DNA of 64,000 bases from a virus. Under the pieces are notes generated by a model, which searched no databases, was not told where the DNA came from, and worked only from the letters and a program-made list of their open reading frames with translations. The stretch covers positions 1-64,000 of the IMG/VR virus record IMGVR_UViG_3300025154_000063. The stretch is one strand, 5' to 3'. Below are positions 8,505 to 50,980 of this stretch, in pieces. Position numbers and translations under genes: made by a program. Numbering within the stretch: the stretch's first letter is position 1; each line of letters begins with the position of its first letter.

Positions 8505-9408
8505 TTTGGCTGACTATGTGCGGGCTTACCGCAGACTAGGTTTCTTACCCTTCCCGCTTTCTGGTGGCACTAAAATGCCACCGGAAGGCTGTAAGTTATT
8601 CTATGCAAATGAAATTCCTTTTAAAGAGGGGGATAACATTGGCTTATTCACAGGGTCAAGCAATAGGTTTACTGTGATTGATGCTGATGATGAAAGAGCA
8701 CAGAAGAATGTTACTTGGTTCTTGAAGAAGATTGGTTTGTATGAACATCTTACTATTGTGAGGACACCAACCCGTGGTGGATTACACTTTTGGGTGAGGA
8801 TAGATGCTCCAGAGTGGGTACAAACATTCTATAAACTTCCTAGTGAGGTTGGTCATGGTGAGTTTAGGTTTAGGAGACCTGCATATGTTGTTGGTGTTGG
8901 TAGTGCTGTAGAGTCTGGTAAATATGAATTCATACAGGGTGGTATTGAAGAGTTTGTAGCACAGCCCTTACTTCCATATGACATGTTTTATAAATTACTA
9001 CCACATCACGCCAGAGAACAATCAAATAAACTTAATTACTCTGGAGACACAAGTCAATTAACCTTTGAATCCTTTGGGTTACATCCAGTAGCAAAAAATC
9101 CTAACCCACCTGTGTTAAACATCATACCATTAATCCACTCCTCCCAATATAATATACCTAAGATAAGTACTTATACTGGTAAGGTTAAGGCAGGAAAAAG
9201 ATATGCCTCACGTTCAGAGGCAGAAGCTGGTTTGGTTACAGGGTTAATAAAGTATGGTTGGTCTTTCAATGATGTACTAAAACTATTTACTGATGAGCGA
9301 TTGCCACACTTTAAATCAACACCAAACCCTGAGAAATACTTATCAGCAACATACTTAAAGTGTCTTGGGTTCTATGCACAACACATAAAAAGTCAACCAA
9401 GTTTCTAG
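8494..9408 (+). CDS. Primase-polymerase (AEP, prim-pol type)
   Basis: The 304-residue protein resembles the bifunctional prim-pol N-terminal domain. It starts with YRRLGFLPFPL...GGTKMP, then NIGLFTG and TVIDADDE (the first metal-binding acidic pair, about 64-70). TPTRGGLHFWVR follows at about 90-101 and then RRPAYVVGVGS. It would make primers for phage replication. There is no attached helicase, which is encoded separately at 11835-12839. A C-terminal region of about 120 residues is not recognised. Confidence 0.82.
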   Translation: MLNSLADYVRAYRRLGFLPFPLSGGTKMPPEGCKLFYANEIPFKEGDNIGLFTGSSNRFTVIDADDERAQKNVTWFLKKIGLYEHLTIVRTPTRGGLHFWVRIDAPEWVQTFYKLPSEVGHGEFRFRRPAYVVGVGSAVESGKYEFIQGGIEEFVAQPLLPYDMFYKLLPHHAREQSNKLNYSGDTSQLTFESFGLHPVAKNPNPPVLNIIPLIHSSQYNIPKISTYTGKVKAGKRYASRSEAEAGLVTGLIKYGWSFNDVLKLFTDERLPHFKSTPNPEKYLSATYLKCLGFYAQHIKSQPSF

Positions 9409-9418
9409 TATACTAAGA

Positions 9419-9443
9419 CCCCCAAATTAATTGGGGGTTTTTT
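9419..9443 (+). terminator. Rho-independent terminator after prim-pol
   Basis: CCCCCAA and TTGGGGG form a GC-rich stem with an AT-only loop, followed by six T. It ends the rightward replication unit where the leftward genes converge. Confidence 0.9.
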
Positions 9444-9488
9444 ATTTGCCTATGTCTTTATTGACATTTCATGTGTAAAGTTCTGAGA

Positions 9489-9514
9489 TAAAAAAAGAGA
9501 GCCTTTCGGCTCTC
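9489..9514 (-). terminator. Rho-independent terminator of the leftward replication genes
   Basis: Read leftward, GAGAGCC, a GAAA tetraloop and GGCTCTC are followed by a run of T. It faces the rightward terminator at 9419, so the two units converge cleanly. Confidence 0.9.
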
Positions 9515-9521
9515 AATTCTT

Positions 9522-10319
9522 TTAGATATTGTAAGAAAGGATTTGGGCTGCTTTAGCAACTACCTTATCTTCTTCTGTCTCAGGAATGAATTTAACTCCT
9601 GCGTTGTTGGCTACCTTACCGGCTAACCATTTAATTACTGCTGTGGAGTTTTCAATTCCTTCTACCTTTGCAAATGTCTTTCCTAAGAACTCTTTGGGCA
9701 GTGGGAGAGTCTTTGAAACAACTGTGCTCATTGCCCACTCAACTTCTGCCTCAGTTGGAGCACTACCATTAGCTGATTTAGTGTGGATATTAACCTTCAT
9801 CCATCTGCTGAATTTGCGCTTTGGTTTCTTTGCTCCCTCGGTGTAGTATGGGTTTGGCTTGAATGCCACCTTAACCAACTCATCGGCTGTTGAAAAGAAT
9901 TTGTCTGACTTTGCAGCTGCTCCTCTTTCAATTGGATTACCCTGCCAAACTGGCATACTATTAAGGGATAATCCTGTGGCTAATTCAAATGCCTCAACAT
10001 CAACATCTTCATTTAGGTACATTCCCATGGTGCGGAATTTGGCATTAGGCCCATACATGTCAATGATGGGTGTTATTCTACCATCATCTTCTTCTTTCTC
10101 ACGACGAACGAAGTATTTCATTTCCTCAATTGTCTCACCATCTTCGGCATCTGATGTCCCTACCATATCGGTTGTGAATCCAGCAGCCATCAGGCTTTCA
10201 ATCGACGTTCGAATATTTGTAGCTTGTTCGATAGTCATTGTTTGATTTGGGTTAATGGGGACGGTTACTTGTACACCATTCACAAATAGCTTAACCCAAC
10301 CAGTGTTTTCTTCTGCCAT
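9522..10319 (-). CDS. Hypothetical protein of the replication region
   Basis: The 265-residue protein is not recognised. It has an acidic central stretch (DAEDGETIEEMKY, REKEEDDGR), a basic segment (KKPKRKFSRWMKV) and no cysteines. It is expressed from its own promoter at 10357-10385 behind AAAGGAG and ends at a strong terminator, so it may be abundant. Position and size would suit a single-strand-annealing or DNA-binding protein, but no motif shows that, and an SSB is encoded elsewhere (58875). Confidence 0.65.
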   Translation of the reverse strand: MAEENTGWVKLFVNGVQVTVPINPNQTMTIEQATNIRTSIESLMAAGFTTDMVGTSDAEDGETIEEMKYFVRREKEEDDGRITPIIDMYGPNAKFRTMGMYLNEDVDVEAFELATGLSLNSMPVWQGNPIERGAAAKSDKFFSTADELVKVAFKPNPYYTEGAKKPKRKFSRWMKVNIHTKSANGSAPTEAEVEWAMSTVVSKTLPLPKEFLGKTFAKVEGIENSTAVIKWLAGKVANNAGVKFIPETEEDKVVAKAAQILSYNI

Positions 10320-11834: not shown

Positions 11835-12839
11835 TTAGTCAATATCTCCTATAGGTTTAGTTGTGGCACGTCCGATGAAACAACCAGATTCATCATCTAA
11901 AGGTTGCCATAAAGTAAAGCTCGAAGCTCTACGACTTTCTTCCAGAATAATTCTCATAACTCCTGAGCCAGACTCATACTTTGTAGAGATAACAGAGTTG
12001 GCTTCTTCTGCTGCTTTTGAACCACCTGCTGCCATAAGTGTACCACCGTTGCGTGATTCCCTTACAGACGTTAGAGAGACCTGTGTAAGTAAGAAGCATG
12101 CCACGTTGTAGCGAGCTACTAAGTCACCGATTGCACTGACAGACTTAATTAATTTTTCATAGCTTGATGCTTCACCCGCTATTGCATACTGTTGGGCGTG
12201 GTCAATAACAAACATATTGACACCCTCTTCTTCAATTAGCCTTACCCAACGTGATTCTGCAGGTTCTTGTGGGTCATAGGCATTGCCTAAGTCACGTGTG
12301 TTTCCTTGCATAGGGTTAGCACCATGAACAAGTAATGACCATTCAGACATAGTAGCTATAGCATAGTTAATAGCTTTGAGCTGGTCTTTTGTTCTTGAGT
12401 TGTACATCAGAAATTCTGGGGTTATGCCTAGTTGATTGCACACAGCCTGACCACAAGCGTGGCAGTGTGAGAATGGAGTGTGTCCCTCACCAAGTAAATA
12501 CCTTGTAGCCATAATAGATATAAGGCTATCTCTGTATCTGCGAGGAGGCATGCCAGACTCAAGTGTATCAATATTAATTACAGGTGGGTTAACTAGCTCT
12601 GCATTGTTACAGATGTTGGCAATTACATTTGCCATGAAAGTTGTCTTACGATTTTTCTCTTGTCCCTGAACAACAACCAATTCACCATTAAGAACATCAA
12701 CACCATAGAGTGCTCTGTCTAATTCAGGAATGCCATAAGGTACAAGTAGCTTGCGGTTGTCTTCTGGTTTGCCCCAATCATCAACACATTGTTTGATTAA
12801 GTCTCGGATATGTGGGCTGTATGCTGTAGTTTTTTCCAT
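11835..12839 (-). CDS. DnaB/RecA-fold replicative helicase
   Basis: About 334 residues from the ATG behind AGGAGG (12839); a longer reading frame to 12905 lacks a ribosome site. A Walker A variant is seen as VVVQGQEKNRKTTFMANV (about 57-74), Walker B as MFVIDHAQQY (about 207) and a sensor-like FLLTQVSL. CHACGQAVC is a possible zinc knuckle. It would unwind DNA ahead of the adjacent polymerase. The classical GKT is degenerate (KNRKTT). A perfect promoter lies at 12877-12905. Confidence 0.8.
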   Translation of the reverse strand: MEKTTAYSPHIRDLIKQCVDDWGKPEDNRKLLVPYGIPELDRALYGVDVLNGELVVVQGQEKNRKTTFMANVIANICNNAELVNPPVINIDTLESGMPPRRYRDSLISIMATRYLLGEGHTPFSHCHACGQAVCNQLGITPEFLMYNSRTKDQLKAINYAIATMSEWSLLVHGANPMQGNTRDLGNAYDPQEPAESRWVRLIEEEGVNMFVIDHAQQYAIAGEASSYEKLIKSVSAIGDLVARYNVACFLLTQVSLTSVRESRNGGTLMAAGGSKAAEEANSVISTKYESGSGVMRIILEESRRASSFTLWQPLDDESGCFIGRATTKPIGDID

Positions 12840-40079: not shown

Positions 40080-40099
40080 GTGTCCTCCTAAATATAAGA

Positions 40100-40175
40100 G
40101 CAAGCGGCGGGGGTCGAACCCGCATTTTCATCCTTTATGCACGTGGTGCTTAGAAGGCACGGCCATTACGCTCGC
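40100..40175 (-). tRNA. tRNA-Arg(TCT), D arm apparently missing
   Basis: Acceptor GCGAGCG/CGCTTGC pairs and the T arm GCGGG-TTCGACC-CCCGC is perfect. A GTGC/GCAC stem carries the classical Arg loop CTTCTAA. Only about 8 bases separate the acceptor from this stem, so there is no D arm, and the variable region is about 22 bases. Confidence 0.6.
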
Positions 40176-40181
40176 ATGAGT

Positions 40182-40369: not shown

Positions 40370-41464
40370 TTATCCTGTTGCTTTGAAGTTATAGATAGGC
40401 TTAATAACTTCTATTATATCTGCTGTTGGTGCTATATCATCTACAATTGTTTGCATTGACTTGTAAGCATTTGGTGCTTCATCCAGTGTGGATGCTCCTA
40501 CAGTACTACTATAAACACCCTTCATGCTACTAACAAACTCATCTAAGTCCAGAGTCTTCTTTGCAACATTTCTTCCCATCAATCTACCTGCTCCGTGGGG
40601 AGCTGATAAATTCCAATCTTCATTTCCTTTACCAACACATATTAAAGAACCATCACGCATATTGATAGGGACAATAAAGATTTCATCTTTCTTTGCTGAC
40701 ACAGCGCCCTTTCTTATCATACCCTGTGACACGTAGTTATGAATTGTTTCAAAACGTCCGATGTTCTGGATGCCAACAAACATGAAGTTTACAATAAGGT
40801 TTGATATTACTTCCCTATTAAGGCTAGCATATTTTTGACATATCTCCATGTCGTGTAAGTATCCCTCACGTGCTTCACCTGTTAAGTAACACAGGTCTTT
40901 TGGAACACTTGCATCACAAGAGTCAACAGCTACCTTCTGCCAGTACTCAGCAACCTGCTTTCCTAGGTTACGGCTTCCAGAGTGAACAACTAAGTAGATA
41001 TTGCCGTCTGTGTCTTTGTCAAGCTCGATGAAGTGGTTACCACCACCTAGTGTTCCTATCTGCAGTGGAAATACCTGCTGCTTCTTTAACTTCTTGTAAC
41101 AATATAGGTCTACTATATCCCCGAAGTTTTTTACAACTGTTAGGTGTGAGTTATGTCCACTTGGAATTATTGTGTGTACTGCATTGTCAAAAGCACGTAG
41201 GTCTAGCTTTACTTTTCCTAAGTTGGTAACGTGCATTCCACACCCAATGTCAACTCCAACAAGGTTAGGAATTACTATCTCTCCCAGCTCTGCAGTAAAC
41301 CCTATTACACATCCTGCCCCAGCATGGTAGTCTGGCATAATACGAACGCTCTTTCCATGTGTAAAGCTCTGGTTAAGTAATTCAATTATCTGACTTACTG
41401 CCTTATCTTCCCCAACATCAGAGAATACTTTTGCTGTTGCATATTGTCCTGTTAATTCAAACAT
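40370..41464 (-). CDS. rtcB: RtcB-type RNA-splicing ligase
   Basis: The 364-residue protein has the RtcB hallmarks: LVGVDIGCGMHV (metal-binding Asp/Cys, about 68-79), GGGNHFIEL (near 148), VVHSGSRNLGK (near 163) and SAPHGAGRLMGR with the GMP-accepting His (near 291). RtcB joins 2',3'-cyclic phosphate or 3'-phosphate RNA ends to 5'-OH ends and seals tRNA halves in archaea and animals. Here it is embedded in the tRNA array, between tRNA-Leu(TAG) and tRNA-Glu(TTC). AGGAGGAAGTT precedes the ATG. It is likely to act on tRNAs, whether repair of cleaved tRNA or maturation. Confidence 0.92.
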   Translation of the reverse strand: MFELTGQYATAKVFSDVGEDKAVSQIIELLNQSFTHGKSVRIMPDYHAGAGCVIGFTAELGEIVIPNLVGVDIGCGMHVTNLGKVKLDLRAFDNAVHTIIPSGHNSHLTVVKNFGDIVDLYCYKKLKKQQVFPLQIGTLGGGNHFIELDKDTDGNIYLVVHSGSRNLGKQVAEYWQKVAVDSCDASVPKDLCYLTGEAREGYLHDMEICQKYASLNREVISNLIVNFMFVGIQNIGRFETIHNYVSQGMIRKGAVSAKKDEIFIVPINMRDGSLICVGKGNEDWNLSAPHGAGRLMGRNVAKKTLDLDEFVSSMKGVYSSTVGASTLDEAPNAYKSMQTIVDDIAPTADIIEVIKPIYNFKATG

Positions 41465-41494
41465 AACTTCCTCCTGTACAAATTTATATTAAGT

Positions 41495-41565
41495 GCTCTG
41501 TAGGGGAGTCGAACCCCTGTTACTTGGGTGAAAGCCGAGCGTCTTAACCGCTGGACTAACAGAGC
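41495..41565 (-). tRNA. tRNA-Glu(TTC)
   Basis: Acceptor GCTCTGT/ACAGAGC is perfect; the anticodon loop is CTTTCAC; the T arm is GGGG-TTCGACT-CCCC type. It lies just upstream of the rtcB start. Confidence 0.92.
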
Positions 41566-42790: not shown

Positions 42791-42793
42791 AGT

Positions 42794-42863
42794 GCGGGTG
42801 ACAGGATTTGCACCTGCACAGGCTGGGTGGAAGCCAGCAATGCTACTGTTACACCACATCCGC
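42794..42863 (-). tRNA. tRNA-Gly(TCC)
   Basis: Acceptor GCGGATG/CACCCGC (one mismatch), anticodon arm GCTGG-CTTCCAC-CCAGC and T arm GCAGG-TGCAAAT-CCTGT. G55 replaces the usual T55, as in Staphylococcus cell-wall tRNA-Gly. Confidence 0.88.
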
Positions 42864-42870
42864 ATATATT

Positions 42871-42940
42871 GGGAGCGTCCTGCCATTAGACTAACAGACC
42901 CATAAGGTGCTGTAGGGGTATTGAGCCCACTGTTTCTCCC
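42871..42940 (-). tRNA. Candidate circularly permuted tRNA, element 1
   Basis: Read leftward, the parts of a class I tRNA appear in permuted order with normal spacing. They are anticodon-stem 3' strand GGGAG; 5-base variable loop; T arm GTGGG-CTCAATA-CCCCT; acceptor 3' strand ACAGCACC; linker TTATG; acceptor 5' strand GGTCTGT; TA (8-9); D arm GTCT-AATGGCA-GGAC; base 26; anticodon-stem 5' strand CTCCC. CTCCC pairs with GGGAG at the outer ends, and the acceptor pairs with one bulged C. The anticodon cannot be fixed because the loop is split between the two ends. Confidence 0.6.
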
Positions 42941-42944
42941 ATGA

Positions 42945-43014
42945 GCGGAATATCGGATTTGAACCCATACTCAATGCTCGGCAAGCATTTGCGCTACCGT
43001 TACGCCAATTCCGC
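42945..43014 (-). tRNA. tRNA-Gly(GCC)
   Basis: Acceptor GCGGAAT/ATTCCGC is perfect; anticodon arm AATGC-TTGCCGA-GCATT; T loop TTCAAAT with one stem mismatch. The permuted element 1 begins 4 bases after its 3' end. Confidence 0.9.
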
Positions 43015-43070
43015 AATATAATATTTCTATGCTTGAATGATACTAATGAAATATTAAAACAGTCCATTGT

Positions 43071-43151
43071 GGGCAGAGAGGGATTTGCACCCCCAAGACC
43101 GAAGTCGGGCGGGTTACAGCCGCTGAGTGTCACTATTCACTGCTTCTACCC
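43071..43151 (-). tRNA. tRNA-Tyr(GTA)
   Basis: Acceptor GGGTAGA/TCTGCCC, anticodon loop CTGTAAC, a long class II variable arm (CGACTTCGGTCTT) and T arm GGGGG-TGCAAAT-CCCTC with G55. Confidence 0.9.
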
Positions 43152-43321
43152 ATATTTTGTCTGTTCACAGCATCCCGTCAAGGTCGGATTGCCATCATTC
43201 TCTACTTTGTCTCAGGTAGGGTTTCTACATACTGCCTATAATCAGTACCCACCATTGCTCGCCTTGGCCTTTATTGACATTTCAAAGAATGGACGCAGGA
43301 CAGACTTGTCCTTGTCACTGT
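43152..43321 (-). other. Unassigned structured gap in the tRNA array
   Basis: About 170 bases between tRNA-Lys(TTT) and tRNA-Tyr contain no convincing tRNA or gene. Nested helices are visible, for instance TACTG...CAGTA inside GGGT...ACCC near 43210-43245, and CAAGG...CCTTG around it. It may be a decayed tRNA pair or another RNA. Confidence 0.4.
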
Positions 43322-43400: not shown

Positions 43401-43472
43401 GCTCCCAGCAGAGTCTGAGTCTGCATTAGATGATTAAGAGTCACCTACATTTTCCGTTTATGTTATGGAAGC
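43401..43472 (-). tRNA. tRNA-Lys(CTT), 5' end inside the HNH gene
   Basis: Acceptor GCTTCCA/TGGGAGC (one G-U), D arm ACAT-AAACGGAAA-ATGT, anticodon arm GGTGA-CTCTTAA-TCATC, T arm GCAGA-CTCAGAC-TCTGC. The first 15 bases of the tRNA double as the last codons and stop of the HNH gene. Confidence 0.85.
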
Positions 43473-43853
43473 AAGTTTTATTTTTTGTTTATATTCTTTA
43501 TTATGTTTTGATTTTGTTGTAACACACTCAATGCAACGACAATATCTATAAGAAGATAATGTACCATGAGTATTTTTTGCATTACTTCTTCCTAGGTTTG
43601 ACAATGTTTTTTCTATGTGACAATCTACACATAATAATTGACATTTTTCTAACTCAATAATAAGACTTTTAATTGAGCCAACCAGCATATCTGATATGTT
43701 TTTATTTTTTGTGTTTGGGTCAATGTGGTCAAACTCTAACCCTTTATCAGAACCACAAATAGTACATACATTTCCAAGCTGTTTTTCTGCCCATGCTCTT
43801 CTAGCAGCATATCTTGTATTCATATATACTCGCATATACTCATTAGTTGACAT
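43458..43853 (-). CDS. HNH endonuclease inserted in the tRNA array
   Basis: The 131-residue protein has VCTICGSDKGLEFDHIDP (about 30-47) and LLCVDCHIEKT (about 74-84), the HNH/zinc pattern. A basic tail follows. It is a free-standing mobile nuclease gene. Its stop codon lies within tRNA-Lys(CTT), so the gene ends by using tRNA sequence. GGAGCTTAT precedes the ATG. Confidence 0.82.
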   Translation of the reverse strand: MSTNEYMRVYMNTRYAARRAWAEKQLGNVCTICGSDKGLEFDHIDPNTKNKNISDMLVGSIKSLIIELEKCQLLCVDCHIEKTLSNLGRSNAKNTHGTLSSYRYCRCIECVTTKSKHNKEYKQKIKLASIT

Positions 43854-44087: not shown

Positions 44088-44103
44088 GGGGCAATTTCAA
44101 AGT

Positions 44104-44182
44104 GCCTGTTGAGGGAGTCGAACCCACATTCACAGCTCCGTTTACGTATAGTAGTTTAGGAAACTACCTCGGCTAAACAGGC
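44104..44182 (-). tRNA. tRNA-Arg(CCT), D arm apparently missing
   Basis: Acceptor GCCTGTT/AACAGGC is perfect, T loop TTCGACT, anticodon arm GTAGT-TTCCTAA-ACTAC perfect. Only about 8 bases lie between acceptor and anticodon stem, and the variable region is about 23 bases, the same unusual layout as tRNA-Arg(TCT). It sits between a terminator and a promoter. Confidence 0.6.
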
Positions 44183-45948: not shown

Positions 45949-46003
45949 ATAGGGGGGTATTATCCCGCCAACCACATAGTGGACGGAGGTACAACACCCA
46001 AGA

Positions 46004-46153: not shown

Positions 46154-46468
46154 ATATTATTAAAGAGGTATCCGAAGCACGGGTAATACCCTCTTTGTCG
46201 TGGTCTTTTACACCACATGCTCGACTTTTCATTTAGAACCATTCCAACGCTGGTAAACTGCTGGCTGACTAGAGGTTAGGTGAATTGCGTGTCATGCTCA
46301 CACCTGTCGTACCTTATTGGACTCCATACAATAAAGTAGTTGCCTTTGTGTCCTTACAGTTTTTAGAGACTACCCTTTTCTGACACTCACCCTTTCGGGA
46401 AGTTGGATGATTCTTAGAACCCATTAGTAGTGGATTCTACGAACAGAGCTGTGCCTAGTGAACAAGGC
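46154..46468 (-). other. 315-base gene-free structured gap in the tRNA array
   Basis: No tRNA or CDS is convincing here. Inverted repeats are present: AAAGAGG...CCTCTTT near 46162-46196, AGAATCC...GGGTTCT near 46413-46435 and GTGGT-7 bases-ACCAC near 46199-46215. It could hold decayed or permuted tRNAs or another RNA. Confidence 0.4.
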
Positions 46469-46554
46469 GGAGCAGGAGAGAGTCGAACTCCCAATGCCTT
46501 TAACAGCGAATTCGTTTTCAAGACGGGTTTCGTCACCATTCGATTTGCTGCTCC
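46469..46554 (-). tRNA. tRNA-Ser(TGA)
   Basis: Acceptor GGAGCAG/CTGCTCC is perfect; anticodon loop CTTGAAA; long class II variable arm; T arm GGGAG-TTCGACT-CTCTC. Confidence 0.9.
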
Positions 46555-46685
46555 GTATTTATATCCTGAGACTCCCGCTTCTCCACTCAGGTTTGCACCA
46601 TGCACAGGCTGTATCATCCGTGCTATTATAGCCATTGCTGTGATGCAGTTTTATTTTATATAGCGTCTATCTAAACTAATACAGA

Positions 46686-46771: not shown

Positions 46772-46923
46772 GAATTACCAAATGGCCTTGCGGGAGTCAA
46801 ACCCGCCTTCCGATTAGCCGCATTATCGTTGTACTAGTAAGCGTGCACACTCGCTAGCCTTACGAAGTCAGCAGGGTCTCAGTGTGCTTCGTACACTAAA
46901 CGCCCATGTGAAACTTACAGGCT
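46772..46923 (-). pseudogene. tRNA fragments between two Ser tRNAs
   Basis: A perfect T arm (GCGGG-TTTGACT-CCCGC) with a 3' acceptor strand AAGGCC lies near 46782-46807, but no matching complete 5' half is adjacent. Upstream, GGGCGTT-TA plus a GTGT/ACAC hairpin, and CGCTTAC-TA plus a D-like arm, look like 5' fragments. I cannot assemble one tRNA; it may contain an insertion or be decayed. Confidence 0.45.
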
Positions 46924-47005: not shown

Positions 47006-47066
47006 AAAGCTGGGTGGAGGGAGTCCCACCCTCTGCTGCCGTGTTACAAGACACCACCCATAAGGT
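47006..47066 (-). pseudogene. Mini tRNA-like remnant without D arm
   Basis: TGGGTGG and CCACCCA can form a 7-bp acceptor. Between them are a small hairpin with a TGT-containing loop (GTGT-CTTGTA-ACAC) and an AGGG-TGGGACT-CCCT T-like arm. It is about 50 bases long, too short for a normal tRNA. Confidence 0.4.
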
Positions 47067-47232: not shown

Positions 47233-47313
47233 CTCAGTTCCTGACCTATTAGATGAAGACCCATTTGTGCTGTTCCTGCACGAGCCTACGGGAGTCGAAC
47301 CCGCATTACTGAG
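47233..47313 (-). tRNA. Candidate circularly permuted tRNA, element 2
   Basis: Read leftward: anticodon-stem 3' strand CTCAG; variable TAAT; T arm GCGGG-TTCGACT-CCCGT with a consensus T loop; acceptor 3' strand AGGCTCG; 18-base linker; acceptor 5' strand GGGTCTT; CA (8-9); D arm TCT-AATAGGTCA-GGA; base 26; anticodon-stem 5' strand CTGAG. CTGAG pairs perfectly with CTCAG at the outer ends. The acceptor pairs at 5 of 7 positions including G-U. The D arm resembles that of permuted element 1. It fits exactly between tRNA-Thr(GGT) and tRNA-Val. Confidence 0.6.
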
Positions 47314-49639: not shown

Positions 49640-49910
49640 TTTTTAACTCCTCATCTATAGTATTAAGTAACTTTCCTAACTCACACACTGGGGTGTGACC
49701 AATCCTTGCAGAGTCCTTATATTTCCTACCCCTATCTCCACCACACACGGCGCACATAAATGTTATGGGTGGGACAACTACTACAGGCCACTCCATCTTA
49801 TTATGTGCAAGCAAGTCCCGCAGTTGTCTAAGTAATTTATGACTACTGGACGGGACTGGCTTATGGATAATCTGCAGGGCTTCTTTAAACCAAGCAGGCT
49901 GTGTTATCAT
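49623..49910 (-). CDS. Small zinc-knuckle protein, 95 residues
   Basis: The protein has MCAVCGGDRGRKYKDSARIGHTPVC, a CxxC...HxxxC site, near 52-76. The rest is helical. It overlaps the RNA-ligase start by 4 bases (ATGA), so it may be co-translated with the ligase. Confidence 0.55.
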   Translation of the reverse strand: MITQPAWFKEALQIIHKPVPSSSHKLLRQLRDLLAHNKMEWPVVVVPPITFMCAVCGGDRGRKYKDSARIGHTPVCELGKLLNTIDEELKNESVR

Positions 49911-50980
49911 TTAAACTCACTACCACCTTTTCTAGCAAGATAGGCAGCACTAACACTCTTTAAAACTTTGCGACCAACCTTCCAATGATTAGTCTCATCA
50001 AGAGAACGAATAACAATACCCTCTCTCATTTGTTTGTGGTCAAAGTATGATTGCCCTTCTGTTAGCATATCAACCGTGTGCTGGTTGAATACACCAATAT
50101 ACATTGTTGGCACAGTTGGAATGTTGTGTTTTAGTGAAAATTCCACAACCTTTTCCCAAGGTAGGTAAACACCATTTTCTTTAATATCAAAGATAGCTAC
50201 CTTGATGTCACTAAGACCATACTCTAGGTCTTGAATTCCTTTCCCGTAAACCTCTCCATAGACAATAACACCATTAGGGATTATTTCTTTGAAGTTATAT
50301 TTATCTACTATCTTAGCATAAACATCCATTTCATAGTAGTTTCTTCCCCTGCCTGCCAACTGTACGTTGTGTGAACCATAACAAAACTCATATTTCTTAC
50401 CAAAGAGTAACTTAATTCTAGCAAGAACACGATACCACCAAGGCTGACCAGCATCAATTTCTATTGGCAACCAACCAGCACACCAGTTTGAACCATGGAT
50501 TTTTTCTGTTATTACAACGTGGTCATCTTCTGTAAATACATCAGGAAAATTTTTAATATTTTCCATTTCGAAGTACTTAGAAAAGTGAGGATTCATACGT
50601 TTTCTAGTAGCTCTAGGAGCACCTTGTATAGTACGTTCCGGCTGCACATACTTAGTAATTCCCATTACCTCAGCAACATCATCACCCTCTTTGTATTTTC
50701 CTTTTGGCACAGGCAATACTAGCCCTTGTGACAAGTATCCACGTAGACGAACAGTACCGGTTCTCTTATTACCTTTAAGATAAGTTAATTCGTGCTCATC
50801 TATTAGACTATCTGGGAGAACACAATCAGGTGGAATGAATACAACCAAGTCATCAACTTTGTAGCTATCTTTTTGGATGATACAATTCCAACCCTTTATA
50901 ACAGCAATATCCAATCTATCAGCATTTGGATGTGGCTGTACATCTTTTACTTTACAAACTTCAACAATTAAACTTGACAT
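49907..50980 (-). CDS. DraRnl/Rnl5-type RNA ligase
   Basis: The 357-residue protein has an N-terminal OB-like domain (about 1-110: NADRLDIAVIKGW, VVFIPPDCVLP). The ligase core follows: motif I EKIHGSN (lysine nucleophile near 160), AGRGRNYYEM, GEVYGKGIQ, motif IV REGIVIRS (near 320) and motif V HWKVGRKVLK. This is the layout of Deinococcus DraRnl-like ligases, which seal nicked RNA with an OB domain upstream. Its position 2.5 kb from the tRNA array suggests tRNA repair or processing together with RtcB. Confidence 0.85.
   Translation of the reverse strand: MSSLIVEVCKVKDVQPHPNADRLDIAVIKGWNCIIQKDSYKVDDLVVFIPPDCVLPDSLIDEHELTYLKGNKRTGTVRLRGYLSQGLVLPVPKGKYKEGDDVAEVMGITKYVQPERTIQGAPRATRKRMNPHFSKYFEMENIKNFPDVFTEDDHVVITEKIHGSNWCAGWLPIEIDAGQPWWYRVLARIKLLFGKKYEFCYGSHNVQLAGRGRNYYEMDVYAKIVDKYNFKEIIPNGVIVYGEVYGKGIQDLEYGLSDIKVAIFDIKENGVYLPWEKVVEFSLKHNIPTVPTMYIGVFNQHTVDMLTEGQSYFDHKQMREGIVIRSLDETNHWKVGRKVLKSVSAAYLARKGGSEFK

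Follow-up and report, generated by a model that had tools for sequence, protein, structure and literature searches.

A permuted tRNA-Glu-like element in a viral tRNA array, tentatively read as an anticodon-less tRNA mimic

The tRNA array and its two permuted elements

The window, the whole stretch of 64,000 nucleotides analysed here, belongs to a virus record of 88,993 bases. An array of tRNA genes is present on the minus strand at 39.7-47.5 kb; an RtcB gene is embedded in it, and a gene for an RNA ligase lies close by. The array holds an element, c1, between two tRNA-Gly genes, and a second element, c2. Intact tRNA-Glu(UUC) and tRNA-Glu(CUC) genes are both encoded already by the phage. The genes and elements referred to below are:

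42871-42940, minus strand: element c1, permuted tRNA-Glu-like module, 70 nt
42943-43014, minus strand: tRNA-Gly(GCC), directly upstream of c1 (ARAGORN)
42792-42863, minus strand: tRNA-Gly(TCC), directly downstream of c1 (ARAGORN)
41493-41565, minus strand: tRNA-Glu(TTC), the nearest to re-assembled c1 among 1640 distinct tRNAs
40370-41464, minus strand: RtcB RNA ligase gene, within the tRNA array
49907-50980, minus strand: ATP-dependent RNA ligase gene (phrog_968)
47233-47313, minus strand: element c2, second permuted Glu-like module, its acceptor closed by an extra hairpin, GTGC..GCAC

Read on the minus strand from 42940 to 42871, the letters of c1 are GGGAG AAACA GTGGG CTCAATA CCCCT ACAGCACC TTATG GGTCTGT TA GTCT AATGGCA GGAC G CTCCC. 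The order is a 3' half, then a short linker, then a 5' half, with the following parts, assigned from the sequence and, for the T arm, also from the fold:

42936-42940, minus strand: GGGAG, equivalent to the 3' strand of the anticodon stem (39-43); 5' side of the outer stem, paired with 42871-42875
42914-42931, minus strand: T arm, A-G-(U bulge)-GGG, CTCAATA loop, CCCCT
42906-42913, minus strand: ACAGCACC, acceptor 3' strand including the former A73-C74-C75 tail, with one bulged C (aligned with tRNA-Glu(UUC))
42901-42905, minus strand: TTATG linker, which closes the acceptor stem and resembles the TTAT spacers of the array
42894-42900, minus strand: GGTCTGT, acceptor 5' strand
42877-42891, minus strand: D arm GTCT AATGGCA GGAC, of the Glu/Gln type
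42871-42875, minus strand: CTCCC, equivalent to the 5' strand of the anticodon stem (27-31)

These letters match exactly the permuted order described in an earlier, sequence-only reading of the locus. The complementarity of GGGAG and CTCCC was confirmed in 5/5 pairs, and T42941-A42870 extends the outer stem to six. The acceptor stem, described as fully paired with one bulged C and joined by a five-base linker, was found as such both in the letters and in the RNAfold minimum-energy structure. The T arm is present; its stem as originally drawn contains a U:C mismatch, and AG(U)GGG/CCCCU gives 5 bp with one bulged U. The gap between tRNA-Gly(GCC) and tRNA-Gly(TCC) is 79 bases, of which c1 fills 70. 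The seven bases said to separate the element from the next tRNA were found, whereas the upstream distance, given as four, is two by the ARAGORN tRNA ends.

Two independent loci had been said to share one design. Element c2 is of the same layout and leaves 2 and 6 nt in its inter-tRNA gap; full independence did not hold, as c1 and c2 are both Glu-derived and lie in one array.

Several tRNA-like genes in the window were missed by ARAGORN. They include an Arg(TCT)-like gene with almost no D arm (40098-40179), an Arg(CCT) gene with a long variable arm (44103-44182), a Ser(TGA) gene (46469-46554) and a type II Tyr(GTA)-like gene (43060-43160). Two short structured inserts were identified between tRNAs (47007-47063 and 45949-46001), one of them a mini tRNA-like piece with an acceptor and a T-like arm and without an anticodon arm, the other a long hairpin (GGGTGTT...AATACCC). 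The long noncoding gaps of the array at 43015-43319, 46154-46683 and 46772-46919 have strong apparent structure, and no Rfam family besides tRNAs was identified in them at a permissive threshold. An HNH endonuclease gene, possibly a homing endonuclease, is present amid the tRNA genes at 43458-43853.

Folding, chance pairing and relation to tRNA-Glu

The RNAfold minimum-energy structure of c1 is the permuted-cloverleaf design of four helices; the T stem carries a bulged U and the acceptor stem a bulged C. The outer stem had a probability of ~1, and the remaining stems 0.4-0.6. The fold energy was ordinary (z ~0, against a mean of -1.4 for the tRNAs of the array).

A descriptor of the layout gave c1 and c2 as the top scores in the window; on shuffled sequence it returned one match with a score of at least 18 in ~2.1 Mb, both strands included. 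The relevant chance null is the pairing of halves taken from different real tRNAs. For such halves, 5/5 pairing of the anticodon stem was seen in 2-3% and a seven-pair acceptor with a bulge in ~1%. Both pairings occurred jointly in 0/552 pairs from the window and in 0.026% of all pairs, or 0.1% under a looser acceptor rule. An origin of c1 from two unrelated truncated tRNAs was rejected by this null (0.03-0.1%). Among 237 inter-tRNA gaps from all fetched loci (same strand, 55-160 nt), modules with a score of at least 15 were present in six, including those of c1 and c2, compared with 0.6 expected per shuffled pass; at a score of at least 18 there were four, compared with none in the shuffled gaps.

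A covariance model built from the elements of other phages, with c1 excluded, placed c1 first in the window with exact ends (31.0 bits, E 1.8e-6). This score alone is weak and was rejected as proof, because ordinary tandem-tRNA junctions score up to 26.4 bits in the window and ~53 elsewhere with the same model. The helix statistics of the phage elements were likewise set aside as proof, because those elements had been chosen by a pairing descriptor. An exact search of viral contigs for c1 gave no match. Close relatives were sought via the terminase and DNA polymerase and none was found, nor was any relative carrying the c1 locus; a distant blastn search of c1 in phages returned just short matches of the 5' half to tRNA-Gln.

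When the two halves of c1 were compared one at a time with the array's own tRNAs, both matched tRNA-Glu(TTC) best, and re-assembled c1 was nearest to this same gene among the distinct tRNAs of the fetched loci. The claim that both halves stem from one tRNA type is supported by these matches. Element c2 is also nearest to tRNA-Glu genes, but those of another phage. Although c1 differs from its nearest tRNA at about a quarter of positions, no stem difference from tRNA-Glu(TTC) disrupts a pair: 30-40 and 31-39 are swapped on both sides, and mismatches at 29-41 and 13-22 are repaired. The acceptor 3' strand has a 2-nt deletion, compensated by a new GGU:ACC pairing with the former tail. This pairing would make sense only in a permuted context, which is suggestive but is not proof, the comparison being with the nearest tRNA and not with a known direct ancestor. 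From these alignments we strongly infer that the sequence of c1 was derived from the phage's own tRNA-Glu.

Descent from tRNA-Glu also accommodates the main rival to a tRNA mimic, and a serious one, namely that c1 is a relic. A tandem tRNA-Glu pair would have lost the 5' half of its first copy and the 3' half of its second, with nothing made from the remainder, and the inner halves would pair because both stem from the same tRNA. The Glu-like character of both halves, the spacer-like linker, the indels and the ordinary fold energy are consistent with such a remnant, as are the often imperfect tRNAs and other remnants in the array. However, the ends of c1 and c2 coincide exactly with the anticodon-stem position and both elements sit flush in their gaps, all pairs are kept in c1 despite its divergence, and other phages use the same layout functionally. 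We regard a relic as plausible, though on balance doubtful.

The same layout in other phages

Scans of viral contigs, followed by the descriptor and a tRNA-overlap filter, gave ~20 further elements free of ordinary tRNAs. They are present in loci L102, L118, L178, L191, L193, L205 (two), L206 (up to three), L235 (three), L242, L255 (two), L262, L265, L277, L336 (two), L374, L439, L441 and L460. Most of the phage elements examined have an additional basal stem outside the anticodon stem. YrlA RNAs comprise D, T and acceptor arms, with the two RNA ends forming a basal stem (PMC8394870), and phages carrying YrlA have been reported before (PMC7765460). The Rfam YrlA model, RF02553, matched in 8/9 loci searched, with E values of 1.5e-2 to 4.5e-7 (L255, 45.9 bits; L262, 40.4; L102, 35.9; L178, 34.3; L235, 34.0; L205, 33.3; L206, 32.6; L118, 29.7); all eight matches fall below the model's gathering score of 69 bits, and the ninth locus, L374, gave no match. 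Where other phages show the c1-type layout, it is that of the tRNA-like module in YrlA-type Y RNAs, which mimic tRNA and are linked to the Ro60 protein. Seeming permuted tRNAs in phage tRNA arrays are mostly Y RNAs, missed by standard gene finders and by the Rfam threshold.

Ro60-type genes (TROVE or DUF2828/DUF7788) were present in 12/18 module-bearing records and in 4/18 tRNA-rich records without a detected module (Fisher p 0.018), an association taken as supporting evidence only, because the records are mostly fragments, the controls were searched for modules only in part, and L441 and L460 were reassigned from the controls once modules were found in them. The module directly adjoins a Ro60-type gene in L118, L374 and L178.

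Direct repeats beside L178 and L255, and the RAGATH-27 RNA beside L102, had raised the possibility that self-cleaving ribozymes on either side, or a permuted group I intron, act as a circularising device. The repeats are the basal regions of Y RNAs, and a permissive Rfam search of five module-bearing loci returned no family of ribozymes or introns.

Other features were noted in these contigs. In L102, which encodes RtcB, a RAGATH-27 RNA (RF03100, 5-86) lies directly upstream of the YrlA-like module (162-230). A 350 kb phage record, that of L235, has three YrlA-like modules in a tRNA array (9175-9244, 11939-12007 and 12307-12376) and also a TROVE gene. In L206, a ROOL RNA (8971-9618) is located in a tRNA array, 34 nt upstream of a YrlA-like module. 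GOLLD RNA is present in two RtcB-encoding tRNA-rich contigs (L151 and L153, 5532-5976). A Ro60-like open reading frame in L479, from the record of L336 (60213-61409), has one in-frame TAG, perhaps reflecting stop-codon recoding. Several Y-RNA-like units with common flanks, ACAGCAAA...CUGUUGAAU, lie upstream of the Ro60-like (DUF2828/DUF7788) gene of L374 (5700-6180), and similarly in L118, L439 and L460. In one such unit the tRNA body is replaced by an anticodon-arm-like hairpin, TTAGA CTCATAA TCTAA (CAU, U33), possibly a decoy anticodon arm.

Given the common layout, and a Ro60-type gene in most phages with such modules, c1 might be an ordinary YrlA Y RNA whose Ro60 partner would come from the host or be encoded in a stretch of the phage genome still to be sequenced. 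Several results stand against this. RF02553 gave no match to c1 even at E<=10, and 12.7 bits for c2, the level of tandem tRNAs. Neither the leftover bases nor a motif scan provided a Ro60-binding basal stem for c1 or c2, and the conserved GGUUAYY or ACAGCAAA flank is absent at c1. The 89 kb record, possibly only a fragment, yielded neither a TROVE, DUF2828 or DUF7788 gene nor a relative of the L374 protein. The neighbouring tRNAs are just 2 and 7 nt away; only c1 and c2 sit flush, with 2+7 and 2+6 bases left, compared with 19+26 in L235, 33+22 in L460 and 64+13 in L441. We consider an ordinary YrlA role highly improbable.

Interpretation and comparison with known systems

In c1 a 3' half stands upstream of the 5' half of the same tRNA, as in a permuted tRNA gene. 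The array contains RtcB, with an RNA ligase close by, and c1 and c2 could be the first permuted tRNA-Glu genes in a virus: one of these phage enzymes would join their ends, producing circular tRNA-like RNAs or, once the linker is lost, mature tRNAs, which would protect against anticodon nucleases; this we think unlikely. Equally improbable, in our estimation, is a true permuted tRNA gene in which RNase P cuts the joined circle within the linker and trimming then yields a tRNA that decodes. The permuted order and five-base linker fit such a gene, but no bulge-helix-bulge motif was identified at the c1 junction, and an outer 4-bp helix has no room in flanks of only 2 and 7 nt. Joining the ends gives no seven-base anticodon loop with U33, since each split of the adjacent bases places A or G at 33 in both c1 and c2. 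The ACC tail is base-paired in the acceptor stem, and the phage already has both tRNA-Glu genes intact. The earlier suggestion of a permuted precursor circularised into a tRNA was therefore not supported. RtcB renders joining of the c1 ends conceivable; the product would not decode.

A tRNA mimic, or what is left of one, is a likelier reading of c1 than a functional permuted tRNA gene. Our tentative best explanation, to which we give a little less than even odds, is that the phage's own tRNA-Glu gave rise to c1, a Y-RNA-like tRNA mimic lacking an anticodon, with c2 a second. A tandem or circular tRNA-Glu copy that lost its outer halves is the likely route of origin. An RNA of ~75-80 nt would be freed by the normal processing of the two flanking tRNA-Gly. 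It would present the tRNA elbow, and could be neither decoding nor charged because it has no anticodon loop and no free CCA end. Such an RNA may occupy elbow-binding proteins, including tRNA-cutting or tRNA-degrading nucleases, modification enzymes and the phage RNA-repair ligases. The permuted order with its pairing intact, the two elements filling their gaps flush and the layout common to ~20 phage elements argue for a mimic, as do the tRNA-Glu matches of both halves, the stem changes that keep every pair, the RF02553 matches and Ro60-type genes of the other phages, and the likeness to the L374 module. Against it are the lack of a basal stem, of a Ro60 gene in the record and of an RF02553 match, the ordinary fold energy, two indel blemishes in c1 (the U bulge and the acceptor deletion) and the degenerate tRNA-like pieces elsewhere in the array.

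The YrlA layout and the idea of a competitive inhibitor have been published (PMC8394870, PMC7790460). Elements c1 and c2 connect two puzzles, the presence of RNA-repair enzymes in tRNA-rich phages and the role of the tRNA-like half of Y RNAs without Ro60. If expressed, they would be natural stripped-down tRNA mimics without anticodon or CCA, and would offer a direct test of Y RNA modules as competitive inhibitors of tRNA-cutting enzymes.

In the permuted tRNA genes of algae and Thermofilum, a bulge-helix-bulge is cut by the splicing endonuclease and ligation regenerates a full tRNA (Soma 2014, PMC3978253). Element c1 has the 3' half first and a short linker, as these genes do, but neither the bulge-helix-bulge motif nor an anticodon loop. 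In bacteria, YrlA is often close to rtcB (PMC8394870). Element c1 resembles YrlA (RF02553) in its D, T and acceptor arms, its loop-closed acceptor and a chain that ends at the anticodon-stem position; it differs in its source, the phage's own tRNA-Glu, and in the absence of the basal Ro60-binding stem, the family match and a Ro60 gene in the record. Among individual elements, the one most like c1 is that of L374 (6042-6111). Unlike c1, this element has a flanking basal stem with ACAGCAAA...CUGUUGAAU and is located 136 nt upstream of a Ro60-like (DUF2828/DUF7788) gene. The two share a length of 70 nt, a GTCTAATGG D arm, a U-rich linker and an acceptor of 7 bp in which a single pyrimidine bulges at the same position.
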